DNA of 22,515 bases from a virus. The translations under genes and the position numbers were made by a program. The stretch is taken from the IMG/VR virus record IMGVR_UViG_3300027746_000101, positions 1-22,515 of that record; one strand, 5' to 3'. Positions within the stretch are counted from its first letter, which is position 1, and the number at the start of each line of letters is the position of its first letter. Below the pieces are notes generated by a model. It saw only the letters and a program-made list of their open reading frames with translations, had not been told where the DNA came from and ran no database searches. Positions 2,484 through 19,233 of this stretch are shown piece after piece.

Positions 2484-2765
2484 GTGAACGACAACTCCAT
2501 CGCCCGAGTGGCCTACAAAGCCCTGCTCAAAGCCCAGGGAAAAACCAAAGCCGAGTTGCTCGCCATGGCATCCGCCCTCGAGAGCGGCATCGAGGAGACC
2601 ATCATCACCTCCCTCAATACCGACGGCACCGGCACCTCCGCCCAGCTATCCGCCCTCACCAAGACCGACCGCCTCTCGGCGATCATGGAGGTTTACACCG
2701 AAGGCAACGGCGTCCGCTCCCTCTCCTCCGTCATCGATCGCTCCCTTTACGAGACCCCGCTTTGA
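2484..2765 (+). CDS. Small head protein in the gpW position
   Basis: This 93-residue protein starts with GTG, 13 nt after a TTTGACA motif. It occupies the place of lambda gpW, between large terminase and portal. It is mostly helical in character: residues 4-45 are Ala/Leu/Lys/Glu-rich, followed by a Thr/Gly-rich turn and a second helical stretch ending in LSSVIDRSLYETPL. I see no clear similarity to gpW, which is 68 residues, so the head-completion role is only positional inference. Codon use is the GC-rich pattern of its neighbours. The stop TGA sits in CCCCGCTTTGA, an 11-mer repeated just downstream at 2767-2777. Confidence 0.75.
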   Translation: MNDNSIARVAYKALLKAQGKTKAELLAMASALESGIEETIITSLNTDGTGTSAQLSALTKTDRLSAIMEVYTEGNGVRSLSSVIDRSLYETPL

Positions 2766-2777
2766 TCCCCGCTTTGA
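2755..2777 (+). repeat. 11-bp direct repeat at gpW-position/portal junction
   Basis: CCCCGCTTTGA occurs at 2755-2765 and again at 2767-2777. The first copy carries the TGA stop of the upstream gene. The second forms the beginning of the TTTGACA motif of the portal gene. A local duplication may have created the motif here. Confidence 0.7.
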
Positions 2778-2779
2778 CA
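2773..2779 (+). promoter_or_regulatory. TTTGACA start-associated motif, portal gene
   Basis: TTTGACA lies 13 nt before the portal GTG at 2793. A 6-bp hairpin, CACGCC (2778-2783) pairing with GGCGTG (2790-2795), begins inside the motif and ends on the start codon itself. Confidence 0.55.
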
Positions 2780-2792
2780 CGCCCGCCTCGGC

Positions 2793-4238: not shown

Positions 4239-4392
4239 GCACATCACCTTCATCAACGCGCTACGCACCAAGTGGCAGCGCCCCTTGATGGCCCCACTCC
4301 CACCACAAAAAGAAAATGATAAAGAACCACAAAGAGTACTTCAGCTCACTCTCGCAGACATCGTCCGTAGCCGACGAGAATCTCGACGCTGA
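4204..4392 (+). CDS. Small protein of unknown function
   Basis: This 62-residue open frame starts at ATG 4204 inside the end of the portal gene. I do not recognise it. Third codon positions are GC-rich over 4240-4300 (for example ATC ACC TTC ATC AAC GCG), as in the neighbouring genes, and no other frame accounts for 4239-4315. The last 25 codons overlap the next gene and lose that bias, so the C-terminus is probably constrained by the overlap. It is Pro-rich in the middle and ends in a basic tail (RSRRESRR). It may be a genuine small head gene or a non-functional leader. Confidence 0.5.
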   Translation: MPLPFKTTPSPEHITFINALRTKWQRPLMAPLPPQKENDKEPQRVLQLTLADIVRSRRESRR

Positions 4393-4630
4393 GTCCAAGC
4401 CCCTCCGCCGCCTCCTTTGCGCGCTCATCGACCGCGCCGTCGAGGATCTCCGATCCACCGCCACCTACCAATCTCCGCAGATGAACAACGCCGCCGCATA
4501 CGACAAGAGCACCGCCAGCCATTTCATCGATTCCCGCATTTACCGTTGGATGTGCGCCCGCATGCACCTCCCCAGTGCCCGCATCCGCAACGCCGCCCTT
4601 TTTGACAACCAAACAGAATCACATGCGTAA
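4316..4630 (+). CDS. Hypothetical head-region protein
   Basis: This 104-residue protein of unknown function lies between portal and protease. Codon bias matches neighbouring genes from the first codons on, which supports ATG 4316. It is helical in the middle (LRRLLCALIDRAVEDLR, about residues 30-46). The rest is polar, with a Tyr/Arg/Met-rich C-terminal part (RIYRWMCARMHLPSARIRN). Its last 8 nt overlap the protease start, and the TTTGACA motif of the protease lies in its coding sequence as Phe-Asp-Asn codons. A decoration or stabilisation role is possible but nothing in the sequence shows it. Confidence 0.7.
   Translation: MIKNHKEYFSSLSQTSSVADENLDAESKPLRRLLCALIDRAVEDLRSTATYQSPQMNNAAAYDKSTASHFIDSRIYRWMCARMHLPSARIRNAALFDNQTESHA
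4601..4607 (+). promoter_or_regulatory. TTTGACA start-associated motif, protease gene
   Basis: TTTGACA, in the longer context CCCTTTTTGACAACC, lies 15 nt before ATG 4623. It is embedded in the 3' end of the upstream gene. Confidence 0.55.
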
Positions 4631-5747: not shown

Positions 5748-5795
5748 GCCGAGGAGAACCCAACCAACAACCCAAACACAACCACATCACCCATT
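5748..5795 (+). promoter_or_regulatory. A/C-rich leader of the major capsid gene
   Basis: GAGGAG at 5751-5756 is too far (39 nt) from ATG 5796 to act as a normal Shine-Dalgarno sequence. From 5757 to 5792 the leader is almost only A and C, hence likely unstructured. A similar A/C-rich leader precedes the fibre gene at 19511. It may favour initiation by ribosomal protein S1 binding or simple accessibility at highly expressed genes. Confidence 0.4.
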
Positions 5796-6644
5796 ATGGC
5801 CAATACATTCGATAGCGCTCTGGTTGCGGACTCCATCGCCGCACAGACAAAAACCATCCTCAGCAAGCGCCTCACCGCGTTGAACCTGTTTGCGTCCGAC
5901 TTCTCGTCCGACGTGAAGAAACCCAAAGACACCGTCCACGTGCCTATCGCATCAGCGACAGCGAGCACCGAGGTCAACCCATCTGTCTTTAACAGCATCG
6001 GCGGCACGACCATCGGCAAAGCCTCGGTCGTTCTCGATCACATCTATCAACCTTTCGGGTTGGCATACAGCGACCTCCAAAGCGCGCACCGCTTGGACCG
6101 CCTGATCCAGATCAACTTGGACGCGATGGCAGACAAAATCTGGGCGCTCGTTACCGCTCCGATCACTGCCGCTAACTTCGGCGCAGCGACCGTCACCACA
6201 GCGGCAGCCAGCATCAACGCAGCAAGCGGAGACCTTCCTAAACTCTGGGCAGCAGTATCGAAGAGCGCACGCAAAGGCCTCGTAGTAAATCCCGTCATTT
6301 ACTCGAACCTCATTCCAACGAACACCACTAATCTGAGCTTGAGCGAAGGCGCTTATGGCTTTGAGAATGGTGTGCATTACGCATCCTCATTCGGCGGCCA
6401 AGCCAACCTCGCTGGTTTCGCTTGCGCTCCCGAAGCGCTCGTCATGGCCTCCGCCGTGCCAGCACTTGCAGACAACGATTACATGGTCTCCGACAGCGTG
6501 ACCCTCGATCAGATCGGCCTCACGATCGCTTACAACGTGTACAGCGACAAGAGCACCCGCTCACTCATCGCTTCGCTTGAAGTCATGTTCGGTGCTGCCA
6601 AAGGCATCACCGGTGGAACGATGGCCCTCATCGTGCCAGTGTAG
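5796..6644 (+). CDS. Major capsid protein
   Basis: This 282-residue protein should build the icosahedral shell. The assignment comes from its position directly after protease/scaffold and before the connector genes, its length, and its composition. It is rich in Ala, Ser and Thr, with an N-terminal helical arm (residues 1-35), a central segment with helix LIQINLDAMADKIWALV, and a C-terminal SLIASLEVMFGAAKGI. This resembles small HK97-fold coat proteins that lack the long delta domain. I do not recognise the exact family. Codon use is more balanced than in neighbouring genes (more GCT, GGT, GCG, TTG), as often seen in highly expressed genes. It is followed at once by a strong terminator. No separate lambda gpD-like decoration gene is visible. 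Confidence 0.82.
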   Translation: MANTFDSALVADSIAAQTKTILSKRLTALNLFASDFSSDVKKPKDTVHVPIASATASTEVNPSVFNSIGGTTIGKASVVLDHIYQPFGLAYSDLQSAHRLDRLIQINLDAMADKIWALVTAPITAANFGAATVTTAAASINAASGDLPKLWAAVSKSARKGLVVNPVIYSNLIPTNTTNLSLSEGAYGFENGVHYASSFGGQANLAGFACAPEALVMASAVPALADNDYMVSDSVTLDQIGLTIAYNVYSDKSTRSLIASLEVMFGAAKGITGGTMALIVPV

Positions 6645-6675
6645 CCTTCCTCGCGCTTCACAGCGCCCAACCCGC

Positions 6676-6717
6676 AAGAGCCCGGCAGGAGCCTTTCCCT
6701 GCCGGGCTTTTCTTTTT
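6676..6717 (+). terminator. Rho-independent terminator after the capsid gene
   Basis: AGCCCGGCAGG (6679-6689) pairs perfectly with CCTGCCGGGCT (6698-6708) around an 8-nt loop. The stem can extend through A-U and G-U pairs and is followed by a T-rich tract to 6717. It would separate abundant capsid transcription from the connector and tail genes. The T tract runs straight into the next TTTGACA. Confidence 0.88.
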
Positions 6718-6721
6718 GACA
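6715..6721 (+). promoter_or_regulatory. TTTGACA start-associated motif, head-tail gene
   Basis: TTTGACA lies 13 nt before ATG 6735 and 7 nt before ATG 6729. The 13-nt spacing seen at 2484 and 2793 favours 6735. It overlaps the end of the terminator's T tract. Confidence 0.5.
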
Positions 6722-6734
6722 CAGCAGCATGGGT

Positions 6735-7058
6735 ATGTCGCCCGCATCCCGCAACGCCCTCGCTCTTCGCTCCGCAGCCGCGAGCAATGCGCTCCACGGC
6801 ATCATCGTTAAGTTTCGCGGGCAGGACATCCGCGTTTGTTTGGCGGCCACAGTCATCGGCCTCGACCTCGACACCGGAGGCCTCAAGCAGGGCGGCGAGT
6901 TTAAGTGCCGATTCTTGGTTTCGGATTTCCCGCTCCCTCCTCGCCGTGGCGAGCTGGTCTTGCACAACGGCCGCACCTACCTCATCAACGAAATCACCCA
7001 ACAAACTATCTACACCGGCGAGCATGTGGTCACGCTCACGCCCGGCTCCGCGCAATGA
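6735..7058 (+). CDS. Putative head-tail joining protein
   Basis: This 107-residue protein lies directly downstream of the capsid gene, where lambda carries FI and FII. The second half is a run of beta strands with the pattern RRGELVLHNGRTYLINEI, followed by TGEHVVTLTPG. This parallels the RRGD...V.RV strand layout of lambda gpFII (117 residues). That likeness is by eye and remote. The first 20 residues are helical and Ala-rich. ATG 6735 is preferred over ATG 6729, two codons upstream, because of the TTTGACA spacing. The gene overlaps the next by 4 nt (ATGA), implying coupling. Confidence 0.6.
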   Translation: MSPASRNALALRSAAASNALHGIIVKFRGQDIRVCLAATVIGLDLDTGGLKQGGEFKCRFLVSDFPLPPRRGELVLHNGRTYLINEITQQTIYTGEHVVTLTPGSAQ

Positions 7059-7453
7059 CACTCGACACTCAAAACGCCATCGTTGCCTATCTCCGAGCGC
7101 TCCCTGCGATGGAAGGACTCGCGATCCACGCGAGCACGGACGACAAAGAGATCCCCGGCGACCAGCCCGTGGTCGTCGTCTCATGCGACAACGCCGAGAG
7201 CCCTGTTGCCAAGCTCTACCGCGCCACGGTCCAGCTCACCCTCTCGACGCCCGTGCTTATGGAGGACGCTCTGGAAACTCACCGCACTCTCACCTCGGCC
7301 CTGCGCACGGCCGCGAATCTCTCGGCCGTCGCCACGTTCTTTCCGCCGACTCTCGTTTTCAGCGGCCGTCACCTTAACACCTGGCACGAATCCCGCGAAG
7401 ACGGTCGCCTCGTCACTACCGCCGAACTCGTCGTCGGCGTGCGCGAAATTTGA
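7055..7453 (+). CDS. Putative tail terminator protein
   Basis: This 132-residue protein would cap the growing tail tube and set its junction with the head. It shows the helix-strand layout of tail terminators: an N-terminal helix (TQNAIVAYLRAL), strands around VVVVSCDNAE and YRATVQLTLSTPV, a helix (ALETHRTLTSALRTA), and a final strand TAELVVGVREI. Length is close to lambda gpU (131). The start overlaps the upstream stop as ATGA. Its TGA stop lies inside the TTTGACA motif of the following gene. The family assignment is based on shape and order, not on conserved residues. Confidence 0.6.
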   Translation: MTLDTQNAIVAYLRALPAMEGLAIHASTDDKEIPGDQPVVVVSCDNAESPVAKLYRATVQLTLSTPVLMEDALETHRTLTSALRTAANLSAVATFFPPTLVFSGRHLNTWHESREDGRLVTTAELVVGVREI

Positions 7454-7455
7454 CA
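7449..7455 (+). promoter_or_regulatory. TTTGACA start-associated motif containing a stop codon
   Basis: TTTGACA lies 15 nt before ATG 7471, and its TGA is the stop codon of the upstream gene. The same overlap with a stop codon recurs at 19453-19459. Confidence 0.55.
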
Positions 7456-7470
7456 ACCCCTTTTTATCAA

Positions 7471-7626
7471 ATGCCCGAACTTGAATCCAAACTCCGAGCC
7501 CTTCTTGAAGAGGCCAATGCCGCAGGCGCATTCGCCAGCGTCGGCAGCGCACCAGTCGAAGACGGCACCAAACTGGAATTCTACTTCACCCTCCGCGTTA
7601 CCGCGCCACAACCTACCAAAGAATAA
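7471..7626 (+). CDS. Small tail-region protein of unknown function
   Basis: This 51-residue protein has an acidic N-terminal helix (PELESKLRALLEEANAAG) followed by a strand pair (TKLEFYFTLRVTAP). I do not recognise it. It is supported by GC-rich third positions, tight packing (stop at 7624-7626, next ATG at 7629), and TTTGACA 15 nt upstream of its ATG. It sits between the tail terminator candidate and the tube-like genes. Confidence 0.65.
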   Translation: MPELESKLRALLEEANAAGAFASVGSAPVEDGTKLEFYFTLRVTAPQPTKE

Positions 7627-7628
7627 TT

Positions 7629-7937
7629 ATGGCTTTTGCATCCATCGATCTTTTCGGAGTGACTGACCCCGCCTCCGGCTATTTACAAGAAACGACCAAG
7701 ACCGAGACCGCCGAAATCGCCTCCGTGCGAGACACGACCGGGGTCACCAAGGTCGCCGTGCTCAAGGGCGTTCTGACCACGGAGGTCGTGCTTAAAGGCA
7801 AAGGCACCTACACCCCAGCCGTCACAGCCAATCTGAATGTCGCTGGAACGGCTGTCATCACGTCCGCTAAAGTTTCCGAGTCGGCCGAAGATTTCCCCGA
7901 CTACGAGATCACCTACCAACAATTCGCCGCGAACTAA
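7629..7937 (+). CDS. Tail tube-like protein, paralogue A
   Basis: This 102-residue beta-rich protein is probably a tail structural component. The central block TKVAVLKGVLTTEVVLKGKG aligns with SKAAVYDPKFTFTVSGKG of the next gene, and the overall strand order is similar. The two therefore look like tandem paralogues. Position just before the chaperone frameshift pair and tape measure is where the major tail protein is usually found. I cannot tell which of the two, or whether both, form the tube. There is no Shine-Dalgarno sequence; the start context is ATTATG. Confidence 0.6.
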   Translation: MAFASIDLFGVTDPASGYLQETTKTETAEIASVRDTTGVTKVAVLKGVLTTEVVLKGKGTYTPAVTANLNVAGTAVITSAKVSESAEDFPDYEITYQQFAAN

Positions 7938-7940
7938 CCT

Positions 7941-8261
7941 ATGGCCGCTCCAACCGCAATCGGACTCACCCTCATTTCAACGGCGACCGCGCAAAGCGTG
8001 GAAGTCACTTCCCAGGGCGAAGTGGCTATCCTTGTTGGCCATGACGGCAAGTTTTCTAAAGCCGCCGTCTACGATCCGAAATTCACTTTCACCGTTTCGG
8101 GCAAAGGCGCTGTCTGCCCCGTCTCGATCAACGTCAGCGGCAGTGGCAAACCCTCCGGTGTCACAGGCAAGGTCATCATCAACTCTATTAAAAACCAGAC
8201 GAATAACGACGATTGGGAATCCTGGGAATACTCCGGCGAAGCCTACCCGTCCGCCACCTAA
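7941..8261 (+). CDS. Tail tube-like protein, paralogue B
   Basis: This 106-residue beta-rich protein is related to the preceding gene (shared K-A-V...T-V-x-GKG block). It begins 3 nt after that gene's stop. It ends in an acidic, Trp-containing segment (NNDDWESWEYSGEAYP) that the first copy replaces with EDFPDYEITYQQF. A heteromeric tube or a tube plus a tail-surface domain are both possible. A 51-nt gap with a hairpin follows. Confidence 0.6.
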   Translation: MAAPTAIGLTLISTATAQSVEVTSQGEVAILVGHDGKFSKAAVYDPKFTFTVSGKGAVCPVSINVSGSGKPSGVTGKVIINSIKNQTNNDDWESWEYSGEAYPSAT

Positions 8262-8281
8262 CCGCGCCACCGCGCCCGCTC

Positions 8282-8298
8282 GCAGACCGGCCGTCTGC
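8282..8298 (+). other. Hairpin upstream of gene at 8313
   Basis: GCAGAC (8282-8287) pairs perfectly with GTCTGC (8293-8298) around a 5-nt loop, in the 51-nt gap before ATG 8313. No T tract follows, so it is more likely a translational or processing element than a terminator. Confidence 0.45.
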
Positions 8299-8312
8299 CC
8301 ACCGATCCCATT

Positions 8313-8816
8313 ATGTTAAAATCAGGCGACAGCTACCACTACCTCACCGAGGTCTCCCTCGGCGAGACCACCAAAGACGGCCGCATCCGTTACGGCAATA
8401 ACCCTCTCAACGCGCAGAATACCCGGCTTATCGCCGACGCGCTCACCAGTGGCTTTCGCTTAGTCGAAGGCGGCGGATTCCGCGACACGGTCGAGCAGAC
8501 CGATGGCGGTCCTCTCCGCAAAATCGAGTGGTATATCGACGGTTCCAGCATGGGCCTATTCGTCACCGCCGAAGGCCGCGAGGAAATCGACTTTGCCGAA
8601 TTCCAACGCCGATACCAGAGCGAGCAATGGTGCCTCGAGCACAGCCACCACCCGATCGCCTTCATGCGGTGGAGCGCCCGCCACCTCTCCGAACTCCGCG
8701 ACAAGATCCGCGAGCTCACGCCCGCAGCCGTCCTTCGTCGCGGCAACCGCACCGTCACCGTCCCCGCCAATCTACCCCAAGACAAAAAAGACAAACTCCT
8801 CTCCTACCTCAAATGA
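8313..8816 (+). CDS. Tail-region protein of unknown function
   Basis: I do not recognise this 167-residue protein. Residues 1-55 are polar. Residues 60-90 form a strand-like segment (KIEWYIDGSSMGLFVTAEG). Residues 95-125 are rich in aromatic residues and His (RRYQSEQWCLEHSHHPIAFMRW). The C-terminus is basic and helical. It lies between tube-like genes and the tail assembly chaperone pair and overlaps the latter by 4 nt (ATGA), so it is probably co-translated with it. Codon use matches the core phage genes. Confidence 0.75.
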   Translation: MLKSGDSYHYLTEVSLGETTKDGRIRYGNNPLNAQNTRLIADALTSGFRLVEGGGFRDTVEQTDGGPLRKIEWYIDGSSMGLFVTAEGREEIDFAEFQRRYQSEQWCLEHSHHPIAFMRWSARHLSELRDKIRELTPAAVLRRGNRTVTVPANLPQDKKDKLLSYLK

Positions 8817-9199
8817 TCGATCCAAAAACCGACTACTTATTCCTCGAACCCGACACCATCGAGGTCGCCGGGCTTCGCCTCCGCCCGTTTTCGATTGCCA
8901 GCTTCAATCTCATCCAGCGGCTCGGCATCAAGCTGGACGGCACGCAAACCGACGCCGAGCAAATGCGAAACCTCGCCGCCCTCGCATGGATCCAAAGCGC
9001 GCCGATTCCCGAAGTGATAAAATCCGTCCACTGCGGCAAGGCCGACGAATCCATCGACGCTTTCATGTTTACGATCGACCTCTCGCGGGTCGGTGAACTC
9101 TCGGCCGAACTCAACCGCATCGGCGAGCAAGTCGCAGCGGCGTCTTTCGGCGTTGAGGCCAAGCCCGGCGATAAAGAGGAATCCACCCCCCCAAACTAA
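8813..9199 (+). CDS. Tail assembly chaperone, short form (gpG-like)
   Basis: This 128-residue product is the zero-frame form of a gpG/gpGT-type pair that coats the tape measure during tail assembly. The N-terminal part reads PFSIASFNLIQRLGIKL, followed by helices and a polar, disordered tail ending ESTPPN. Its stop TAA (9197-9199) follows directly after the heptamer CCCAAAC, which is in the correct C CCA AAC phase for -1 slippage. It lies right before the genes leading to the tape measure, as in lambda. The family call comes mainly from the frameshift architecture and position. Confidence 0.8.
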   Translation: MIDPKTDYLFLEPDTIEVAGLRLRPFSIASFNLIQRLGIKLDGTQTDAEQMRNLAALAWIQSAPIPEVIKSVHCGKADESIDAFMFTIDLSRVGELSAELNRIGEQVAAASFGVEAKPGDKEESTPPN

Positions 9200-9423
9200 T
9201 TGAGCCAGGGCAGACCGCATCGATGGTCTTCACCCTGGCCCGAGAAACCGGATGGCCCGAACACTACATACTCTGGCAACTCCCGCTGCACCGCGCCCTC
9301 GCCTACCAGCACGCCGCCCTGCGTGCTCACGGCGTCTGGACCGTCACTCCCTCAGCACCAGCCGAGCACGACCTCGCCGCACTTTTGACTTCGCTGCCAA
9401 CTATTGACGAGGAAGACGAATAA
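8813..9423 (+). CDS. Tail assembly chaperone, -1 frameshift fusion (gpGT-like)
   Basis: If ribosomes slip back one base at 9190-9196, translation continues from CTA at 9196. It reads LIEPGQTASMVFTLARETG and goes on to a stop at 9421-9423, giving about 203 residues. The -1 frame is open from before the slippery site, and the linker between 9196 and ATG 9223 has normal codon bias. That argues for a fusion rather than a separate gene starting at 9223. The added 75-residue T-like domain contains WPEHYILWQLPLHRALAYQHAA and an acidic end (IDEEDE). In lambda the GT form recruits the tube protein to the tape measure complex. Confidence 0.78.
9190..9196 (+). other. Slippery heptamer CCCAAAC for -1 frameshifting
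   Basis: The zero-frame phasing is C CCA AAC, a canonical X XXY YYZ site, directly followed by a TAA stop in the zero frame. It sits at the end of a C run (9186-9192), which offers a second slip site, C CCC CCA, at 9187-9193. I have not identified a clear downstream pseudoknot by eye. Confidence 0.8.
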
Positions 9424-9424
9424 A

Positions 9425-10207
9425 ATGCCAGCGCCCACCATAAAAATTGACGACGCCAAAATGCTTCGCAAAATGAAGCAATACGAAAAGATCGTCGGCA
9501 AAGAGATAAAGCAGCTCGTCCACAATGCTGGCCGTCTCTGCTGCTTGGAACTCGCCAAAAGCACCGCCCCCAAAGGCACCGGCGTTGCTGCAAAAAAACA
9601 GGGCGAGAAAAAGATCACAAAAAACCTAAGTGGCATTTTTACCATCGTGAACCAAAAGTGGTGGAAAGAAGTCACAAGCGGGAAGGCATTTAGCAGTGGC
9701 GGCGCGGCCATCCATTCCAAGAGCGGAGTGGTGTGGGCAGTCGATTCGCAAGAGACTATCGCCAGCGTGGATTCCGCAAAATCCTTCCACCGATCCCAGC
9801 GCGGATCGGATGGTGTACCCGCTCGCCTCGGGATGTTGGACCGCGCCATCGTGCGGCAAGCCGTGTATCGAAAATTCTTGAAAGAGACCTTGGCAAAGGT
9901 CGGCCTCTCAAAAGCCGGTTGGGGCGTGGCCGCCATCGCTTGCAAGGCCGATACACGCCAACCACTCCGAGGCATTCCCGCATGGGTTCGTCGCCACATG
10001 GGCAAAGCTAAGGGCTCCATTAGCGACCGCAAAGCCAGCGGATTCTCTTGGCAAATCAAACTCTCCAACCGAGTCCGATATTCCCGCGAAACTCTTTCCG
10101 GTAACGGCCAATCTTTCGCGGTCAACCTCGCCCGCCGCAAATTCTTTTCGATGATGAACCACGCAATTCGTGCCCAAAAGGCCAAGGAAGCCGGACTCAA
10201 ACAATAA
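9425..10207 (+). CDS. Minor tail-region protein of unknown function
   Basis: This 260-residue basic protein lies between the tail chaperones and the tape measure. It begins with a Lys-rich helical stretch (KMLRKMKQYEKIVGKEIKQL). It contains Trp/Lys patches (NQKWWKEV, GIPAWVRRHMGKAKG) and ends in a basic helix (ARRKFFSMMNHAIRAQKAKEA). I recognise no domain. Genes in this position in other siphoviruses are often minor tail or tail-completion proteins. The start ATG lies 1 nt after the upstream stop; GAGGA lies about 12 nt before it, but that is also Glu codons of the upstream gene. Codon use is slightly less GC-biased than in neighbours. Confidence 0.78.
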   Translation: MPAPTIKIDDAKMLRKMKQYEKIVGKEIKQLVHNAGRLCCLELAKSTAPKGTGVAAKKQGEKKITKNLSGIFTIVNQKWWKEVTSGKAFSSGGAAIHSKSGVVWAVDSQETIASVDSAKSFHRSQRGSDGVPARLGMLDRAIVRQAVYRKFLKETLAKVGLSKAGWGVAAIACKADTRQPLRGIPAWVRRHMGKAKGSISDRKASGFSWQIKLSNRVRYSRETLSGNGQSFAVNLARRKFFSMMNHAIRAQKAKEAGLKQ

Positions 10208-10208
10208 T

Positions 10209-11795
10209 ATGGCAGACGTCACAGTCACACTCGGCGCCAAAGACACCGGCCTGCAAGCCGCTCTTAAAAATGCCAGCACTTCCGTTAGTAATCTCAAGCC
10301 CGCTATGGTCGGAGTCGCCGCCGCCGGAGCTGCCGCCTTTGCCGCTCTCGGCATCGCGGCCACCGGAGTGAAGGCCGCTCTCGATATGGGCGGCGTGCTG
10401 TCCGATGTCGCCGGTCAGACCGGAATGACAGCCGGGAAAGTCATGCTCCTTCGCACCGCCTTCGACCAGGCAGGCCTCGGAGCAGATCAAGTCGGCGGGA
10501 CGATCAATAAAATGCAGAAGGCGATTGCCGAGGCCACCACCGGCAGCGGCCCGGCAGCCGATGCCCTTTCAAAGCTAGGCCTTTCCGCATCGGCACTTTC
10601 CGCTCAATCTCCTGATGAGGCCTTTAACGCCATCGGCGCGGCGCTCGCAGGCATTGCCAACCCCACCGAGCGCGCCGCGACTGCCATGGACATATTCGGC
10701 AAGAGCGGCGGCAAGCTCCTGACCCTCTTCGGAGATTCGGGCGCTCTCGCCACCGCAAGCGACACTCTCGGCGCGCAGGCATCCATCATGGATAAAAACG
10801 CCAGCATTTTTGACCGCACCTCCGATCTCATCAATGGATCGTCGAATAAACTCCAAGGCGTCTTCGTCGGCATGGCCGAATCGATCGCCCCGGCGATCCT
10901 GCCGCTCCTCGAGCAATTTAATAAAATGGATTTTACCGCTCTCGGCCAGCAGATAGGCAGTGCCGCCGCCATGTTTATCACCGCCATGACCGACGGCTCC
11001 ATCTGGTCGATCATGGGTGACTCCATCAAAATCTCGCTGGGGAATGCTGTGAATTTCCTTTGGGCGAGCCTGCAAGGCATCATGGCCGCACTCGGCGCAC
11101 TGCTGCCTGAGTTGATACAGAATGCCGTCACAATGTTTGGATTCGTGACATCGCCGGATTTCTGGAAAGGCATGCTCGATGCGCTCGTTGGCGCTGCTCA
11201 AGCATTCGGAGCAATGCTTCTTGGCATCATTGGCAAAGCTCTGGAACTATTTTCAAAAATCCCCGGCCTTGCGGGAAGGCTCGAGGGCCCAATGGCAGCA
11301 ATCAAAGAGGCCGGCCAATCTCTTCAAGGCAGCGCCGACTCCAATCTGGCCTCTGGCGCAGACAAGCTCACCCCATTTATGGACGCCGCCAAGCAACGCA
11401 TCGGCGCCTCGCTTTCCGCCGCAGGCACTGGATTCCAGCAAGGTTTCGACGGAGCCAGCAGCGCCGTGGATGTTTCCGGCGTGCAGGCCAATCTGGACGA
11501 AACCTTTGCCCGCCTGGGCAACACCGTGGAATCCATGAAAGCCTCAGCCCAAGCCGCCCTGCCTGGTCCCAATACAAGCGGGGCAGCCCCCGCTTTTGGT
11601 GCCATGGACACCAAAGAGCCCGGCAAAGCCACCAACCAACCCCTCTTTACCAGTTCGCTCGCCAAGATCGGCGGTGGGGGCGGCATCGCCGGGGGACCCA
11701 GCGCCCTCCTAGACGAAAACCGCCGCCAGACGAATTACCTCCGCCAGATCGCCCTCCGCCTCGGCAACCAAAACTCCACCCCGCTTCTCGCCTAA
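10209..11795 (+). CDS. Tape measure protein
   Basis: This 528-residue protein fixes tail length and is thought to help DNA or the tail tip cross the host envelope. It is Ala/Gly/Ser-rich and helical. It has a hydrophobic segment at about residues 31-58 (VGVAAAGAAAFAALGIAATGV) and two more in the middle (around ASLQGIMAALGALL and LVGAAQAFGAMLLGIIG). The N-terminal block DVAGQTGMTAGKVMLLRTAFDQAG is typical of tape measures. The C-terminal part is Ala/Gly/Pro-rich and ends in a short helix (RRQTNYLRQIALRLG). At the usual 0.15 nm per residue, this predicts a tail of roughly 80 nm. Start context is AATATG, one base after the upstream stop. Confidence 0.9.
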   Translation: MADVTVTLGAKDTGLQAALKNASTSVSNLKPAMVGVAAAGAAAFAALGIAATGVKAALDMGGVLSDVAGQTGMTAGKVMLLRTAFDQAGLGADQVGGTINKMQKAIAEATTGSGPAADALSKLGLSASALSAQSPDEAFNAIGAALAGIANPTERAATAMDIFGKSGGKLLTLFGDSGALATASDTLGAQASIMDKNASIFDRTSDLINGSSNKLQGVFVGMAESIAPAILPLLEQFNKMDFTALGQQIGSAAAMFITAMTDGSIWSIMGDSIKISLGNAVNFLWASLQGIMAALGALLPELIQNAVTMFGFVTSPDFWKGMLDALVGAAQAFGAMLLGIIGKALELFSKIPGLAGRLEGPMAAIKEAGQSLQGSADSNLASGADKLTPFMDAAKQRIGASLSAAGTGFQQGFDGASSAVDVSGVQANLDETFARLGNTVESMKASAQAALPGPNTSGAAPAFGAMDTKEPGKATNQPLFTSSLAKIGGGGGIAGGPSALLDENRRQTNYLRQIALRLGNQNSTPLLA

Positions 11796-11800
11796 TCATT

Positions 11801-12460
11801 ATGCCTGTTGTCACTCGCCGTGAAAAAACCGTCAACAACCGCAACCGAGGCGTCACTTCCATTACAATGGAAGAAGTGGGCGCAGCGAACGAGAACGCCA
11901 TCTCCGCCCCGTCAGGAACCAAGATTCGCAATGTCCGCCGCTCGATCGCCGACGGCCGCGCCGTCCTGACCTACGACGAGGTCGATCCCACCGTCGGGGA
12001 CACATACAGCGTCAGCGGCACCGCCAGCCAAGAGCCCCTCGCCACGCATCCTTATTTTCAAAAAGGCGCAAAATGGGAAGTCACCGAGAGCGAGTGGAAA
12101 AAATGGGATAAATGGCAGAAAGAAGGCACCGACTTGTCCAATCTCACGATCAAAAACGAAGGAGGCGTTGGATTTCAGAGTTTTGTATACCTGTACCTGC
12201 GTGGGTTTACGGACTACCTCCAACCCCGCGTTTCCATCAGGGTCACTGACGCAAATACCACCGAGCCGAAGTTCGACGATCTCGGAAAAATCGCCACACC
12301 ACCCAAAGCCCCCGAGCTTAAAAATGATGCAAACTGGCTTATGACCGGGTGCGACGCAAGCCAAGACGCGGATGGCAACTGGGAAGTCACACGCGAATAT
12401 ATGAGCTCCGGCCCAAACGGGTGGAATAAGTACATCTACGGCACCGACACTCCCCCCTAA
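11801..12460 (+). CDS. Putative tail-tip or baseplate protein, unknown family
   Basis: This 219-residue protein directly follows the tape measure, where distal-tail proteins lie. I do not recognise a domain. The first 30 residues are basic (VTRREKTVNNRNRG). A segment follows resembling an immunoglobulin-like strand set (VRRSIADGRAVLTYDEVDPTV), then a Lys/Trp-rich block (WEVTESEWKKWDKWQKEG) and a beta-rich C-terminus with several Trp and Tyr. The start context is ATTATG. Its stop overlaps the next ATG by one base (TAATG). Confidence 0.75.
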   Translation: MPVVTRREKTVNNRNRGVTSITMEEVGAANENAISAPSGTKIRNVRRSIADGRAVLTYDEVDPTVGDTYSVSGTASQEPLATHPYFQKGAKWEVTESEWKKWDKWQKEGTDLSNLTIKNEGGVGFQSFVYLYLRGFTDYLQPRVSIRVTDANTTEPKFDDLGKIATPPKAPELKNDANWLMTGCDASQDADGNWEVTREYMSSGPNGWNKYIYGTDTPP

Positions 12461-13161
12461 TGCAATACCCGTTGTTCCAAAAAAAGGGCGCCCTCTCCGC
12501 AGCGGATCTCAACCTCGCTATGGATGCGCTCAAGCGCGCCCGAGTGCTCCCTGGCGTCGGCATAAAATTGACCGAGACACTCAATGGCACCGTCGTCTCC
12601 CTCAAGCCCCTTCGCACAGCCGGAGGAGGATCAACCGAGCATTGTGCGTTTAGCATAAGCTCGGAAGGGAAGGGCAATCTAGACGCCACAACGGGACTTT
12701 ACAATCAATTCACCGCTCGGGTTACGGTGGGAGCAATTAACAGCGTATTACCTACGAATTGGTGGGACTCAACAACCAAAGGATTTAAAGGATTTGATTA
12801 CGGAAAAGACTCGCTGCAATATGTGTCTCTTGATGTTAAAGCGGACACAACAGGGATTCTTAGTTGCGAAATAAAAGTTGATTCAACTCTGCCTGCCGCG
12901 CAAAAAGCCACTTCAGGAAATCCTCCAACTCAGTTTAACGTAACTCTGGGCATTCTGTTCAATGATGCAGTGTATCAAATCATAAAGGGTAACATCAGAG
13001 CTTCAACTTCTGTTGTTTCTGCTACTTTTGACGGGGATGGAAAAATGGTTCCCACGTCTTTTTGGGTTGCTTATTCATCTGGTTGCTGTGGAAGCGGGGA
13101 CAGCGGTGTAAGCAATGTTTCAAGTGGAGGTGACGGAAGTGGATTTGGAGGGTATGGATGA
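12460..13161 (+). CDS. Chimeric tail protein across a composition break
   Basis: In this 233-residue protein, residues 1-57 are GC-rich in codon use and read ALSAADLNLAMDALKRARVL, a helical module. After a Gly-rich linker (TAGGGS) near base 12630, codon use switches abruptly to AT-rich, with Asn, Lys, Ser and Thr more frequent. The C-terminal domain is beta-rich and ends in a Gly/Ser tail with a CC pair (SSGCCGSGDSG to GFGGYG). A conserved phage-core N-terminus joined to an exchanged C-terminal domain would explain this. It overlaps the next gene by 4 nt. Function is unknown; a tail-tip or fibre-anchoring role is inferred from position. Confidence 0.75.
   Translation: MQYPLFQKKGALSAADLNLAMDALKRARVLPGVGIKLTETLNGTVVSLKPLRTAGGGSTEHCAFSISSEGKGNLDATTGLYNQFTARVTVGAINSVLPTNWWDSTTKGFKGFDYGKDSLQYVSLDVKADTTGILSCEIKVDSTLPAAQKATSGNPPTQFNVTLGILFNDAVYQIIKGNIRASTSVVSATFDGDGKMVPTSFWVAYSSGCCGSGDSGVSNVSSGGDGSGFGGYG
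13147..13152 (+). promoter_or_regulatory. Rare Shine-Dalgarno-like site
   Basis: GGAGGG ends 5 nt before ATG 13158. It is the only well-placed SD-like sequence I see before any start in the window, and it lies in the AT-rich island. It also encodes part of the Gly-rich C-terminus of the upstream protein, so it may be incidental. Confidence 0.35.
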
Positions 13162-15296
13162 TTACTTACTTAACTAGCGCAGAAGCGACTCCAACCCTGA
13201 CAAGTAAAAAGGTATGGGATGGGGGCAATACCGAAACTTGGGATGATATAGGAAATTTTCTTGGAAATTATTCTAACACAAGATCAGGTGATAACGGATA
13301 TACATCTACTTTCACTAAAGAATACGAGGTAAAAGATGGAGTTACATCTTGGAGTTCTTCTGCATCGGAAAGCGGACGTGTTACAGTAGTTGTTTGGCTA
13401 GGAGGTGGTCAACATTGCGAATCTTGGTCGGCGGCTGTTGTAAATTGGGTTTCTACTTCTGGCACTAGCCTTTATACTACCACTCAAACTTATGCAGCTT
13501 TACAGGGGACTAAATCAATAACTGAAACTGAAACCTACGAGGAACTACAAATAACGACATCTCAATCTTCAAGTAGTTCGGTTCAAAATGGTCAAAATTG
13601 TTGGGGCTCCGGCGCAACGGGGTCAACTACACAGGTAAGTCAAACAAGCGCCTCTGGAAGCTCGTCTTACTCTGCTCAGGGCGCTTACATTGTCGGATGG
13701 CAAACCACAGCAACCTCAACTGTATGGGGGTGGGAAACTTCCTTAACTGTCTTTACAGGCAATTATGTAGATACCGCTGGGACTATTAAAGTTGTAACAT
13801 ATTCCACAGGGGCTTACTCTGGAACAAACTCCACAACAAAGAAAATAATTACAACTACAAGCACACAAGGCGATTCATACGGGGCTTCACTTGTAACACA
13901 AGGAACAGAAACCACCGAGGTTACTATAACGATAATTAAATCAAAATCTACTACGTCTCGTAAAAGTGTTCTAAATTACCATACGGTTTACCAGTGGGAA
14001 CCTAAAGAAACAACGACTTTATACATATTCACAGCAACAGAGATTGGGAAATCAACAACGAAGTTTGAAGATTTTTGCACGTCTTACACAACTAATACCA
14101 CATTGACTGCTCCCCTTGGGATTTTAAGCGGAGAGAGAGAAACGTATGATGCTAATGGAGCTTTGACATTTAGATCGAAAACCAAGGGGGGCCGTGTTAC
14201 TGCGCCATATACGATACTTAAAGAATCGACTTTAACAATCACAACATTTACTGAAACTTCAATTAGGTTGGCTTATCCTTACCCCGCTGTAACAACAGCA
14301 GATTATTTCAGAGGCACAGAAACAGAAATAGCCTCGTATGCACAAAATTCTTGGGAAAGAGATGAATACGCAACCACAAGCGATGGTCGAGGAAATCAAA
14401 ATATGTCAGAAACGTATGAATACTTGGATTATACAACAACAACAGCAAATCCAGCAGGGTTTCCAAGTCCAGTGCTAGGAACAGCAACCTCTTTTCGCGA
14501 TTATGCTTTTAAATTAGGAACAAACACGCGCACTGATAGCGACGGTAACATTGTTGGCAAAACTGAATGCTCTGGGAATTATACATATAGCTTGGGACAT
14601 GGAAAGGTTTCACCTTTTTTTCAATTTTATATTAAAAGGTTGTCTGGACAAGCGGCTGCTGGGGCAGGAAGCAATACTGCAAGCTATGGGTTGTATTCTA
14701 GCGCAGATGTTAGCGGGACAAATAGCCCTCTTGGGAAACCTAATTTGTCTAACACAACAGACATCGCTTTTCCTGTTGCTGGGATAACAGCAAAAAGACC
14801 TTATTGCAATCCTCACATTATCCTTGAGACATCTGGATCAAGTAAAAACACGTCAAGAACTTCCAATATGATATATGTCAATGGTGGAGAGGTCGCCTTC
14901 GTTACAACTTCAGAAAATTCCTCCACTGGCTCAAGCTCATCTAAATCTGCGAGCGTAAAAACTGTTGGGAAACCTATTACTTATTATGGAGGTGATATAA
15001 AACTTAGCGAAGTTGACATAGCATTTGGGACATTAGCCCTTGGTGAAAGTATAAATAATACAAGTTTTAGAAATGCGTGGACTACACAAAGAGCAGGAAC
15101 CGATAATTACAAGCGTTTTTGTTGGGCGCAATCCGTCAGTTTTATGGATTTTGAAGACACATTAGTTTTGGTGGGTCTATTTGATACTCGTACATCTGGC
15201 ACTATTCCGCAAACGACATCATACTCCTATACAACTCTAACAAAAAGCTCAGTGAATTTGTCATTTGGGCAACTCGATATGTATTTTGTATGTTAG
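13158..15296 (+). CDS. Large Ser/Thr-rich protein, putative fibre or surface protein
   Basis: This 712-residue protein of unknown family is dominated by Thr and Ser, especially at residues 95-260, where runs such as TTTSTQ, TTSQSSSSS and SGSSSYS recur with Tyr, Gly and Asn. Alternating polar and hydrophobic residues suggest an extended beta structure. The last 150 residues are more globular (for example ITYYGGDIKLSEVDIAFGTLALGES) and end in LDMYFVC. There is no signal peptide or membrane segment. It begins with an ATGA overlap and shares 7 nt with the glycosyltransferase gene behind it, so the two are probably translated together. That suggests it as an acceptor for O-linked sugars; this is inference. 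Sequence is about 40% GC, against over 60% in the core genes. Confidence 0.8.
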   Translation: MITYLTSAEATPTLTSKKVWDGGNTETWDDIGNFLGNYSNTRSGDNGYTSTFTKEYEVKDGVTSWSSSASESGRVTVVVWLGGGQHCESWSAAVVNWVSTSGTSLYTTTQTYAALQGTKSITETETYEELQITTSQSSSSSVQNGQNCWGSGATGSTTQVSQTSASGSSSYSAQGAYIVGWQTTATSTVWGWETSLTVFTGNYVDTAGTIKVVTYSTGAYSGTNSTTKKIITTTSTQGDSYGASLVTQGTETTEVTITIIKSKSTTSRKSVLNYHTVYQWEPKETTTLYIFTATEIGKSTTKFEDFCTSYTTNTTLTAPLGILSGERETYDANGALTFRSKTKGGRVTAPYTILKESTLTITTFTETSIRLAYPYPAVTTADYFRGTETEIASYAQNSWERDEYATTSDGRGNQNMSETYEYLDYTTTTANPAGFPSPVLGTATSFRDYAFKLGTNTRTDSDGNIVGKTECSGNYTYSLGHGKVSPFFQFYIKRLSGQAAAGAGSNTASYGLYSSADVSGTNSPLGKPNLSNTTDIAFPVAGITAKRPYCNPHIILETSGSSKNTSRTSNMIYVNGGEVAFVTTSENSSTGSSSSKSASVKTVGKPITYYGGDIKLSEVDIAFGTLALGESINNTSFRNAWTTQRAGTDNYKRFCWAQSVSFMDFEDTLVLVGLFDTRTSGTIPQTTSYSYTTLTKSSVNLSFGQLDMYFVC

Positions 15297-16354
15297 CTAT
15301 AACTGTATCTGCAACTAAATCCTACCTACACGCATGGAAACAATGCGTGAGAGCTATCGCCGCCGCATCAAGCCACCATGCCGAGGCACATTTTATATTT
15401 GCAACTGACGAAAGCAAGGAGGGCAAGGCGGCTGCGGAAGTAGCGAGATGCGAACTCCCCGAAGGATGGAAGGTCAGTGTTTTAACACTGCCTATAAAGG
15501 ATGATACAACAGTCAGGTACAAGGATGAAGCTCAAATGCGGATCGCCGCATTGCAGGGGGCTTGTTTTTCTTTGGCTAGGAAAACAAGGGCGACTAGATG
15601 CCTTGTTGTGGAAAGTGATACCATCTTGCCAGCAAATGCGCTACGGGTCTTGGAATGGACGTTGGATATGCCCAAGGCAGATGGGTCGCCGTTCTACCAC
15701 ATAGCGGCGGCAACATACCCGAATGGGGCGTTTCTGGGAGGGTTTGGCACACCGCAGAATCAGATCGCAGAAGACTTTCTGCCAAGTGAACGAAAGTTGC
15801 CAGTGCGACTTAAATTATGCCTAGATCGATGCGAGGAAAGGCTAAAGGCAATTAAAAAGCCAACAAATGAATCAGAACATAAGGCGGCGGACAAAATTGG
15901 TGAAAAAGAACACCGCAGGATGGGGAGGTTGATGCAGAAAATCAAAAACTGTCCGCCAGATGGGAATGTGTGGGAAGTCACGGCAAAATATGGTTGGCGT
16001 AGGCGAGGATGGATGGATGCAGCATACCCCTCAATAGGGCGAGGAGCAGTAGTGCCTAGTGATTGGTGTGGTCTTGGATGCACTCTGCTGTCAGCAATCG
16101 CGCTGGCCCACTCTGATTTTAATGGTTATGAAGGAAAGGGAACGCAAGATTTGTTTTTATGCTGGAACAGATGGTATCCAGAGGGACTAAAGATAGCTTG
16201 TGTGCCACACATTGCCTGCGATCACATTAAGCAAAAGCCTGACGGGGATTTAACCGACTCGCCAAAAATCCTACACCATCGAGCTTACCATGAAACTGAT
16301 CCCGCATACGCAGGGCATCTCCGGTGCAGATCGCAACCGTTTGTTCCCGTGTGA
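15290..16354 (+). CDS. GT-A-type glycosyltransferase (family 2-like)
   Basis: This 354-residue protein probably transfers a sugar from a nucleotide-sugar donor. The N-terminus has a Rossmann-like start (ITVSATKSYLHAWKQC, then FIFATDES). Residues 104-112 read CLVVESDTI, with E108-S109-D110 in the place of the metal-binding DxD motif. The C-terminal half has a pattern usual for family 2 enzymes: GLGCTLLS at 261-268, TQDLFLCWNRW with D287, and a His after VPHIACDH (H312). A charged helical insert lies at about 170-215. It lacks a membrane segment, so a cytoplasmic protein or nucleotide-linked substrate is likely. Nothing shows the sugar or the acceptor. It sits between the Ser/Thr-rich gene (7-nt overlap) and the fusion enzyme (2-nt gap). 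Confidence 0.72.
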   Translation: MLAITVSATKSYLHAWKQCVRAIAAASSHHAEAHFIFATDESKEGKAAAEVARCELPEGWKVSVLTLPIKDDTTVRYKDEAQMRIAALQGACFSLARKTRATRCLVVESDTILPANALRVLEWTLDMPKADGSPFYHIAAATYPNGAFLGGFGTPQNQIAEDFLPSERKLPVRLKLCLDRCEERLKAIKKPTNESEHKAADKIGEKEHRRMGRLMQKIKNCPPDGNVWEVTAKYGWRRRGWMDAAYPSIGRGAVVPSDWCGLGCTLLSAIALAHSDFNGYEGKGTQDLFLCWNRWYPEGLKIACVPHIACDHIKQKPDGDLTDSPKILHHRAYHETDPAYAGHLRCRSQPFVPV

Positions 16355-16356
16355 TT

Positions 16357-17955
16357 ATGCTTGTCGTGATTCCAGTCTCCAGATCGGACTTTAAACGAGC
16401 GGATGCGTTGATTCCAGTTTTCAAAAAGTTTGGCGGGTGCAAATCGCACAAATTGCTTGTGGTATCTCGACATTCTGAAAATGCTTTTGCATTTGAAGTG
16501 GAATCCCAGTTGAGAGGTCTTTTTGGTGAAAGCGATTGCTTCATCTTTAATAATGAAGGCTCAACGGGATGGCCGATGGGGGCTAATTTTTACTTTCAAG
16601 AAACCGTAAGGCATTTGAAAGAAACAGACAATCGGCTCCCTTGGTTGTGGATGGAACTGGATGCCACGCCATTAAAAGAAGGGTGGCTGGATGCCATCTC
16701 TAATGAATACGCCGAAGTGCAGTCTCCGTTTCTGGGAGTGCTCAATGAATGGAATGAGCTAAAATGGATGGATGGAGTTGGAGTTTACCCGCCAAACTTC
16801 CACGAATATTGCACACTTTGGGATAGCGATTTGCCAAAAAGACCGTTTGATTTTGCATTTCGAGATCAAATAGTACCCCACGCACAGGCGTCCAAGTACA
16901 TACAACATTGCTTTAGGACGCAGAACTACTCTGTTTGCGATGGTGGAAAGATAAAGGGGGAACACGCTGTTGAGCCTGAGATCGGTCGGCGTGACGATTT
17001 CATAAATCCAGAAACGGTTCTTTTGCATGGGTGTAGTGATGGATCGTTGGCTAAAATGATTGCTTCTGCTGAAAGGAAGCATCAAATCACTCAGCCTAAT
17101 AGGACGCCTGTTTATATTCAACAACCGAAGTCTGCGAGTACCTATATCCGAACATCCATCTCCGCATTATTGAAATGTCATGCTGTGTGTTTGGATAAAT
17201 ACGAAACCTATGTAGTTATCCAGATTACCAAACAGCAAGAGCCAATTTTTGATGTGTTTGCTTTTGTTAAAAACGAATACGCTATTTTTTTTAAAGAAAA
17301 AAGGAATGGGAACAGAAGACTCTCGTTGGAGTGGGATAGGTATGAACTTTTTTTTAAACACAAGATCAATGACGTGTTTTGTGTTGTTATCAATGCGACG
17401 GAGCGATCCAGAAGAGAAGATGTCATTTCAATTCTGCATCGTATAATTTCTCGAAAGCCACACTATTTTAGCTTTATAGAGAACCCATTCAAAAGGGTTG
17501 CTTCGATGTATTATGTGCATAAGAAGATCGGGCATCTGAGGCATACGCTCCCATCTATTGAGGAGTTTTCCAAGTTTATGCTATCCGAAGACTCCGAGCC
17601 GAACTATGTCACCAAACAAATAGTATCTTACTTTGGGCAAAGCGCAGATCATTATAGTGGAACAGAGGGGATGAGCAAGTTTGCGACCCAGTTTATCAAC
17701 CAAAACATCAAAATGTTTATGTTGAAAAATGTCAACGCTGCATTGTCTCAGGTGTTTTGCTCAATTTATGGGGAACACATTAACCATACTGTGAGCAATC
17801 TTGGTGAAGGCAAAACTCACATAAAACGAGATTACAATATCACAGAAAAGCCAATCCCATTTAATAGGGATTGCATAGCAATAGATGTGCTTGAAAGGTT
17901 TGACCAACTTCACAACTACGATCTTGCTATTTTTAGAATGATTTGTGCTAAATAA
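16357..17955 (+). CDS. Probable glycosyltransferase-sulfotransferase fusion
   Basis: This 532-residue protein has two parts. Residues 1-235 look like a GT-A glycosyltransferase: LVVIPVSRSDF start, STGWPMGANFYFQ at 69-81, and WMELDATPLKEGW with E100-L101-D102 as the likely metal motif. Residues 250-532 look like a sulfotransferase. PKSASTYI (257-264, K258) fits the 5'-phosphosulfate loop of PAPS enzymes, and FIENPFKRVASMYY (373-386, R380, S383) fits the 3'-phosphate motif. In that motif the usual Arg-Asp before Pro is Glu-Asn (375-376), an odd substitution. It could weaken PAPS binding or mean a related non-sulfating enzyme. ATG 16357 is preferred over 16324 because it begins the first strand. 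Very AT-rich. Confidence 0.7.
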   Translation: MLVVIPVSRSDFKRADALIPVFKKFGGCKSHKLLVVSRHSENAFAFEVESQLRGLFGESDCFIFNNEGSTGWPMGANFYFQETVRHLKETDNRLPWLWMELDATPLKEGWLDAISNEYAEVQSPFLGVLNEWNELKWMDGVGVYPPNFHEYCTLWDSDLPKRPFDFAFRDQIVPHAQASKYIQHCFRTQNYSVCDGGKIKGEHAVEPEIGRRDDFINPETVLLHGCSDGSLAKMIASAERKHQITQPNRTPVYIQQPKSASTYIRTSISALLKCHAVCLDKYETYVVIQITKQQEPIFDVFAFVKNEYAIFFKEKRNGNRRLSLEWDRYELFFKHKINDVFCVVINATERSRREDVISILHRIISRKPHYFSFIENPFKRVASMYYVHKKIGHLRHTLPSIEEFSKFMLSEDSEPNYVTKQIVSYFGQSADHYSGTEGMSKFATQFINQNIKMFMLKNVNAALSQVFCSIYGEHINHTVSNLGEGKTHIKRDYNITEKPIPFNRDCIAIDVLERFDQLHNYDLAIFRMICAK

Positions 17956-17969
17956 AGCCTGTCTAAGAC

Positions 17970-17998
17970 CTCCGAGTCTTTACAGGAGTGACTCGGAG
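17970..17998 (+). terminator. Hairpin at the right edge of the AT-rich island
   Basis: CTCCGAGTC (17970-17978) pairs perfectly with GACTCGGAG (17990-17998) around an 11-nt loop containing AGGAG. It lies 15 nt behind the stop of the fusion enzyme, where a terminator would be expected, but no T tract follows. It could be a terminator of another type, an RNA stability element, or a mark of the island boundary. Confidence 0.4.
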
Positions 17999-18008
17999 AG
18001 CCTCCCGA

Positions 18009-18015
18009 TTTGACA
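18009..18015 (+). promoter_or_regulatory. TTTGACA motif with hairpin before a fibre gene
   Basis: TTTGACA lies 21 nt before ATG 18037. A 6-bp hairpin, GCCGCT (18020-18025) pairing with AGCGGC (18031-18036), ends exactly at the start codon. Folding it would bring the motif close to the ATG. Confidence 0.5.
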
Positions 18016-18036
18016 GCCCGCCGCTCCTTAAGCGGC

Positions 18037-19233
18037 ATGAAACTATATCTTGACATTAAAGCCAGGCGATTCGTTAAAAGCGCCGCCAGCAATGTCGCCC
18101 TCCAGACGCTCGTCCTCAAGCGCCGCGATTCAGTCCCCCTCGAGGTCGTCTTCGTGGAGAATGGCGTGGCCGTCTCTCCCGCCGCTGGCACCGCAACCAC
18201 GGTCGCCCTCAAGTCCTCATTCGCCGCCGCGAATTTCCTCGCTCTCGCGTCCCCTGGCCAAACCATCCTCGACCTCAACACGATCCCCCTCGAGGCCGCA
18301 TTCGCCACCGCGCCCTCGGTAGTCAGCGCCCTCCTCGAGGTCAAGTGGACCGCCACCGGCGAAGCTCTCCGCACCGCCACGCTCCCAGTGGAGATCCAGA
18401 ACTCCGTCATCATCGGCAACGAGGCCACGCCAATCGCCATGCCCGACGGCAAAGCGACCCAAGCGCAAGCCGAGGCAGGAACGGACAACGTCACATGGAT
18501 GACCCCGCTCCGCACAGCGCAGGCCATTCTCCGCCTCGCCGCCACTTCCTGGGGGTCGATCACCGGCAAGCCGACCGACTTTCCAGCCTCTCCGCACACC
18601 CACCCCGCCGCACAGATCACCGATTTTGCCGCCGCCGTGGTCGCCGTATCGCCCCCCGTCGCCTGGTCAAACTTGACTGGCAAGCCAGCCACATTTCCCG
18701 CCACCGCCCACACGCACCCTGCCACGGACATCACCGGCCTATCCGCTTTCATCGTCGCCTCGGCCCCCGGTCTCAGCATCACCACCACCGTCCGCACTGG
18801 CGACGGCACCTCCAAAACATACCCAATCAACGGCCTCGTCAGCAACAATGCTGAGACCGTTCTCGTCGCCCTCAATGGCGTCACCCAGACCCCCACCGCC
18901 GACTACACGGTGAGCGCCGCCAGCGGCACCATCACCTTCGACGCCGCGCCATCGAGCGGAATGCAAATCTCCTGCACCGCCCTCGGCCTCCGCAGCGTCC
19001 AGCCGCCTATCGATCCGACTCTCTACCTCTTCGCATTCGCCACCAGCACGGACGGACTCACGACCTACAGCGGACGCCTCCTCAACGCCAACCGCCCCGC
19101 CTTGCCAGCCCTGCCAGAGACCGCGACATCGTGGACCGTCCGCCGCTCCACGACAGACGCCGCCGGGCGCGTCCTCGCAGCCGCCACCGCCACTGGATCG
19201 TGGCTCAACCGGGAGACTCTCGTTTACGCATGA
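18037..19233 (+). CDS. Tail fibre protein with collar repeats
   Basis: This 398-residue protein belongs to the adsorption apparatus. Residues 1-130 form a beta-rich N-terminal domain (EVVFVENGVAVSP and a strand-like IPLEAAFATAP). Two copies of a fibre repeat follow from W172 and W210: W-x-x-[IL]-TGKP-x-x-FP-x-[ST]-x-HTHP-A, the type with HxH metal-binding in trimeric fibres. A beta domain of the form TGDGTSKTYPINGL to TADYTVSAASGTITFD comes next. The last 33 residues, from WTVRRSTTDA, match the end of the protein at 20480 at 17 of 33 positions. GC-rich codon use resumes here after the island. A TTG at 18010 could extend the frame, but ATG 18037 fits the hairpin and motif better. Confidence 0.88.
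   Translation: MKLYLDIKARRFVKSAASNVALQTLVLKRRDSVPLEVVFVENGVAVSPAAGTATTVALKSSFAAANFLALASPGQTILDLNTIPLEAAFATAPSVVSALLEVKWTATGEALRTATLPVEIQNSVIIGNEATPIAMPDGKATQAQAEAGTDNVTWMTPLRTAQAILRLAATSWGSITGKPTDFPASPHTHPAAQITDFAAAVVAVSPPVAWSNLTGKPATFPATAHTHPATDITGLSAFIVASAPGLSITTTVRTGDGTSKTYPINGLVSNNAETVLVALNGVTQTPTADYTVSAASGTITFDAAPSSGMQISCTALGLRSVQPPIDPTLYLFAFATSTDGLTTYSGRLLNANRPALPALPETATSWTVRRSTTDAAGRVLAAATATGSWLNRETLVYA
18550..18762 (+). repeat. Two fibre collar repeats (HTHP)
   Basis: Coding repeats of about 33 residues begin at Trp codons 18550 and 18664, 114 nt apart. Both contain TGKP, FP, HTHP and an Ile-Thr-Asp/Gly end. They are in frame in the fibre gene. Confidence 0.85.

Follow-up and report, generated by a model that had tools for sequence, protein, structure and literature searches.

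The window analysed here, an entire viral contig of 22,515 bases, carries genes for terminase, portal, protease, head protein, tape measure and fibre, arranged as is usual for tailed phages. An initial annotation had pointed at three genes in the tail region, encoding a Ser/Thr-rich protein of 712 residues, a protein of 354 residues and a fusion protein, and all three reading frames are present where it had placed them. Their location between tape measure and fibre genes is confirmed by PHROGs. The region is organized as follows:

10170-11795, + strand: tape measure gene, marking the left edge of the tail-tip region (hit to PHROGs tail length tape measure, E 1e-18)
11801-12460, + strand: conserved protein of the tail region, encoded next after the tape measure (67-75% identical in G016, G032 and L171)
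12460-13161, + strand: small protein directly upstream of the Ser/Thr-rich gene (cluster c1, 38 ORFs in 47 enzyme loci)
13158-15296, + strand: 712-aa Ser/Thr-rich protein, proposed acceptor (from its sequence and the partner statistics)
15290-16354, + strand: 354-aa predicted GT-A glycosyltransferase (alignment of 21 sequences, AF2 model, Foldseek)
16357-17070, + strand: fusion protein, predicted N-terminal GT-A domain (homologous to the L143:7045-8034 family; GT8/glycogenin-like by AF2 and Foldseek)
17071-17955, + strand: fusion protein, C-terminal domain (PKSAST and FSFIENPFKRVASMYY are similar to PAPS motifs of sulfotransferases; motifs only)
18037-19233, + strand: tail fibre gene, right boundary (PHROGs tail proteins; likely start at ATG 18037)

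The reading frames for the Ser/Thr-rich and the 354-aa protein share 7 nt (15290-15296), the overlap noted initially. The third frame is open from a GTG at 16324 and comprises 543 codons (16324-17955), but ATG 16357 is the better start because homologues begin there, which results in a protein of 532 aa. Homologues of the fibre protein begin with MKLF or MKLY. The three-gene block is AT-rich as described, with a GC content of 0.39-0.49 versus about 0.60 in its surroundings. GC3 amounts to 0.29, 0.46 and 0.43 in the genes for the 712-aa protein, the 354-aa protein and the fusion, and to 0.68-0.81 in those for terminase, portal, protease, tape measure and fibre. A foreign island, as the low GC content might imply, was considered and rejected, because in G032, G034 and L171 the gene for the 354-aa enzyme is as GC-rich as the phage itself, and only the gene for the Ser/Thr-rich protein is AT-rich. 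In L133, L164 and L171, a Ser/Thr-rich gene with a GC3 of 0.31-0.42 adjoins an enzyme gene with a GC3 of 0.82-0.84, as if the partner alone had been replaced from outside or were drifting in composition.

Some features of the genomes as a whole deserve mention. Terminase, portal and protease of the window (1-6650) are 91-100% identical to those of G003, G004, G007 and G037, the tape measures of which share only 27-35% identity with that of the window, while its tail genes (6700-19000) match G016, G032, G034 and L171 at 70-81%. Judged by these identities, the window is a mosaic genome with an exchange around the major head protein and the gene at 6729. G016 (57.5 kb) contains two related sets of head and tail genes (72-8973 and 35366-47578), with duplicates for terminase (39% and 84%), portal (56% and 81%) and several others, representing either two tandem phages or an assembly join. 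Multiple partial copies of fibre genes, some with internal stop codons, occur in G012, G019, G020, G032 and G034, as if the module had been duplicated and had decayed.

Searching with the three window proteins directly, against families, by tblastn, in viral contigs and in PDB sequences, gave nothing useful, and the 354-aa protein matches no family in Pfam, PHROGs or NCBIfam; one of its homologues weakly matches Glyco_tranf_2_3 (E 0.07). Among 41 terminase relatives, the enzyme is present in two, G032 and G034, at 74-75% identity, and neither the 712-aa protein nor the fusion was found in any. The enzyme family was reached only via a profile of three homologues, which led to 42 enzyme loci in viral contigs, and a profile of 21 sequences added four contigs from genome bins assigned to Burkholderiales, Chthoniobacter, Betaproteobacteria and Verrucomicrobiota. 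The enzymes of L172 and L173 are distant relatives with an identity of only 39-41%, and that of L172 has no match in phage records. Hosts were assigned on the basis of binning and of the isolate most closely related, Akkermansia phage Moulinsart, whose terminase is 35% identical.

The structural model of the 354-aa protein (AF2, mean pLDDT 79.6) has glycosyltransferases as its top PDB matches in Foldseek, with a probability of 1.00, the best being collagen galactosyltransferase COLGALT1 and the blood-group transferases; glycosyltransferases among viral models are matched as well. TM-scores to known glycosyltransferases are low (0.2-0.4) because it is mainly the nucleotide-binding half that aligns. 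E108-x-D110, T285-Q286-D287, H307 and D311-H312 are invariant in 21 enzyme sequences, the first metal-type motif thus being ExD and not DxD. The model supports the assignment as a GT-A glycosyltransferase made in the initial annotation. In related pairs the enzyme shows a dN/dS of about 0.03-0.15, and its sequence is therefore held by strong purifying selection.

The fusion protein was initially described as a glycosyltransferase joined to a sulfotransferase. Profile searches and structure prediction, which had been proposed as a check, bear out the first half. The N-terminal part belongs to a family of phage proteins, among them L143:7045-8034, and its AF2 model matches GT8/glycogenin structures in Foldseek, so that a second GT-A enzyme is supported by homology and predicted fold. 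What both window enzymes have in common with COLGALT1, the blood-group transferases and GT8/glycogenin is the fold of the half that binds the nucleotide sugar, with partial alignment only and identities of 8-19%. A row of several genes with the look of glycosyltransferases is present in L185 (1763-6011) without a Ser/Thr-rich neighbor, and the last gene of this row is homologous to the N-terminal half of the fusion.

The second half of that description finds no backing in profiles or structures. The C-terminal domain contains PKSAST and FSFIENPFKRVASMYY in the right order, resembling the two PAPS-binding motifs 5'-PSB and 3'-PB, but in the second the leading arginine is replaced by glutamate (IENPFKR versus RNPYKR). 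Apart from this domain, a regular expression for both motifs had no match among 1,947 ORFs, nor in any of 20,000 shuffled sequences; it was dropped as proof, as it had been written after the fact and matched just one of six true members. There is also a weak phmmer alignment to the Sulfotransfer_2 protein L189. On the other hand, the domain has no match in Pfam (E up to 10), PHROGs, NCBIfam or PDB, hhalign assigns a probability of 2% to its comparison with Sulfotransfer_2 sequences, the AF2 model, computed from a single sequence for this domain, stays below a confidence of 50 and gives no assured fold, and relatives were found neither in four nor subsequently in 388 genomes of the phylum from which the Sulfotransfer_2 sequences came. 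A further point in favor comes from L172, a contig of a betaproteobacterial bin, in which a protein scoring above the Pfam cut-offs of Sulfotransfer_3 and Sulfotransfer_1 is encoded directly downstream of the enzyme. Sulfotransfer_3 proteins have been noted in OM43 phages and in Synechococcus phage S-SRM01, the authors calling their function unclear (PMC10580990). L172 resembles these phages in its Pfam-positive sulfotransferase, unlike the window, whose C-terminal domain matches no sulfotransferase family. Taken together, a C-terminal sulfotransferase that sulfates a glycan built by the two glycosyltransferases, as the initial annotation had it in full, appears rather doubtful, and sulfation by the fusion protein, as read from its motifs, is no more probable.

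Serine and threonine make up 30.7% of the 712-aa protein (T 17.6%, S 13.1%). The mucin-like surface envisaged at the outset is nevertheless doubtful: Pro/Thr/Ser-rich repeats of the mucin kind are a poor fit to a protein with 31% Ser/Thr and a proline content of 2.4%. The pairing of such a protein with the enzyme turned out to be recurrent. The enzyme adjoins a Ser/Thr-rich protein in 44 of the 45 loci with a readable flank, the window included, where, if several ORFs were adjacent, the one richest in Ser/Thr counted as the partner, and where the loci are related and not independent. Partners comprise 337-807 aa with 21-37% Ser/Thr and 2-8% proline. The remaining ORFs of 300 aa or longer in these loci show a median Ser/Thr content of 13.7% (Mann-Whitney p 5e-17 versus partners), although 23% of them likewise reach 21%. 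The partner gene mostly lies upstream on the same strand, with an overlap of at most 7 nt or a gap of at most 42 nt, except for L134 with 182 nt. The L150-L160 group has it on the opposite strand, where it converges with the enzyme gene to within 3-33 nt. Epimerase and glycosyltransferase form a two-gene unit with a 4-nt overlap in this group (e.g. L151:1389-2839), convergent with the Ser/Thr-rich gene on the other strand. The pairing extends to the distant relatives L172 and L173 with their 39-41% identical enzymes. The exception is L167, where an enzyme without such a partner adjoins a GT4, with a probable sugar-nucleotide dehydratase close by. Searches starting from two partner families, a small test, returned enzyme loci only, plus L205, which is cut at the contig end. 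In the open-access literature searched, the pairing of enzyme and partner is not described.

The partners themselves are highly variable. Only 29 of 946 partner pairs are detectably related, and partners can be unalignable where the enzymes share 92-97% identity; in L128 and L129, enzymes that are 95% identical go along with partners aligning at 24%. A comparison of the same site within two phage groups revealed that enzyme and Ser/Thr-rich partner are present or missing jointly, contigs without the enzyme carrying instead a gene that is smaller or less rich in Ser/Thr (141-595 aa with 14-23% Ser/Thr). Several sister contigs lacking the enzyme also encode, in its position or close by, a small protein or domain rich in Cys (REATCxxCPEW...GRCxxCxCSTWAKLRMATERCPLGKW; G016 33008-32553, G007 4233-3400, G033 14408-14707, G041 12394-12696, L176 4727-4999), which in L176 directly precedes a glycosyltransferase of the fusion's family.

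These observations make it reasonably probable, in our view, that a tail glycosylation cassette is present in which a conserved, soluble GT-A enzyme modifies a variable Ser/Thr-rich tail protein. Counting against it, adjacency of the enzyme alone leaves the substrate open to doubt, and tail fibers are often Ser/Thr-rich. The main rival is an enzyme acting on another virion protein, be it the small upstream protein, the fiber or a head protein, with the Ser/Thr-rich protein merely a fast-evolving tail-tip or receptor-binding protein. Conservation of the enzyme far exceeds that of the Ser/Thr-rich protein, the small protein of cluster c1 is conserved beside the Ser/Thr-rich gene, and the acceptors in mycobacteriophages (see below) are capsid and tail tube proteins, all of which would suit this explanation. 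It sits poorly with the sister phages, in which the small protein and the fiber are present and the enzyme is missing together with the Ser/Thr-rich protein, and with the L150-L160 group, where the enzyme is encoded on the other strand and still abuts the Ser/Thr-rich gene. We regard it as unlikely.

Further sugar enzymes accompany the pair in many of the loci. A sugar epimerase of the RmlC/FdtA kind adjoins the enzyme in 11 loci and a GT4 lies upstream of it in six, while L143 encodes a second enzyme belonging to the same family as the third protein of the window and without a match in phage records. This company has the look of a glycan-building module. Epimerase and GT4 would equally suit a surface polysaccharide, and phages carry receptor-modifying glycosyltransferases. 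It is conceivable that the enzymes modify surface sugars of the host, thereby changing the receptor or blocking superinfection, and that the link to a tail protein arises through co-evolution with the receptor; the initial annotation had listed host surface modification as an alternative. However, neither window enzyme contains a membrane-like segment (highest 19-residue hydropathy 1.45 and 0.98), and no flippase or bactoprenol-linked glycosyltransferase adjoins the enzyme, as would be expected for serotype conversion of the Gtr type with its membrane-bound glycosyltransferase and flippase. Expression is predicted to occur with the late structural genes, and the constant companion of the enzyme is a variable tail-region gene that is swapped while the enzyme remains unchanged. 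Host surface modification is less likely than glycosylation of the tail protein and in our estimation quite improbable. The core of the original proposal, a Ser/Thr-rich tail protein with a dedicated glycosyltransferase, gains support from comparison: the pair recurs as a cassette in phage contigs by the dozen and frequently has additional sugar enzymes nearby. Sulfation is possible and finds little support in the window.

Comparison with known systems is instructive. Self-glycosylation of phages is known from a few mycobacteriophages. In virions of Che8, Corndog and Myrna, it is capsid and tail tube proteins that receive the sugar (Freeman et al. 2023, via PMC12363180). The window resembles these phages in encoding a glycosyltransferase whose targets are presumably structural proteins of the same phage, and its predicted glycosyltransferase is indeed encoded in the virion gene cluster between tape measure and fiber. 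It differs in the link of its enzyme to a Ser/Thr-rich, hypervariable protein of the tail region, and no sequence relation was detected in 50,697 phage records, mycobacteriophages included. A second parallel is provided by the serine-rich repeat adhesins, in which GtfA/GtfB are the first enzymes. Fap1, GspB and the Lactobacillus SRRP are described as encoded with their own glycosyltransferases (PMC5207161, PMC6291802), and the gene for a Ser-rich protein beside dedicated cytoplasmic glycosyltransferases is a likeness of working. These adhesins are built from repeats and rely on accessory Sec export, whereas the window contains no Sec gene and its GT-A enzyme is unrelated. By analogy, the system of the window may work like those of mycobacteriophages and adhesins, and it shares no detected sequence with either.

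For the tail glycosylation cassette we envisage that the 354-aa enzyme (15290-16354) would transfer a sugar from a nucleotide-sugar donor to the 712-aa protein (13158-15296), which would receive it while still in the cytoplasm, either ahead of tail assembly or in the course of it. The second GT-A domain (16357-17070) would probably extend or branch the glycan, and the C-terminal domain of the fusion might, as a guess, add another group such as sulfate. The Ser/Thr-rich protein would form part of the tail tip or fiber base and change rapidly between phages, and the enzyme could stay unchanged because it recognizes a generic Ser/Thr-rich substrate. We infer that the sugar goes to the neighboring protein, that serine or threonine residues are the points of linkage and that the product is carried on the virion, where it may serve in receptor binding or shielding.

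More tentatively, and with somewhat less than even confidence, the loci may represent a widespread new class of phage tail glycoprotein system, in which a generic soluble O-glycosyltransferase is combined with interchangeable, hypervariable Ser/Thr-rich tail proteins. In some phages, second glycosyltransferases, sugar epimerases and sulfotransferases would add to the system, and the tail-tip coat would then differ chemically from phage to phage. If this is true, a constant enzyme with unrelated, replaceable apparent substrates would constitute a design unlike the self-glycosylation of mycobacteriophages, and the role of virion glycans in receptor binding, shielding or stability would become testable by removal of single genes. 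An enzyme accepting many unrelated Ser/Thr-rich proteins could furthermore serve as a laboratory tool.
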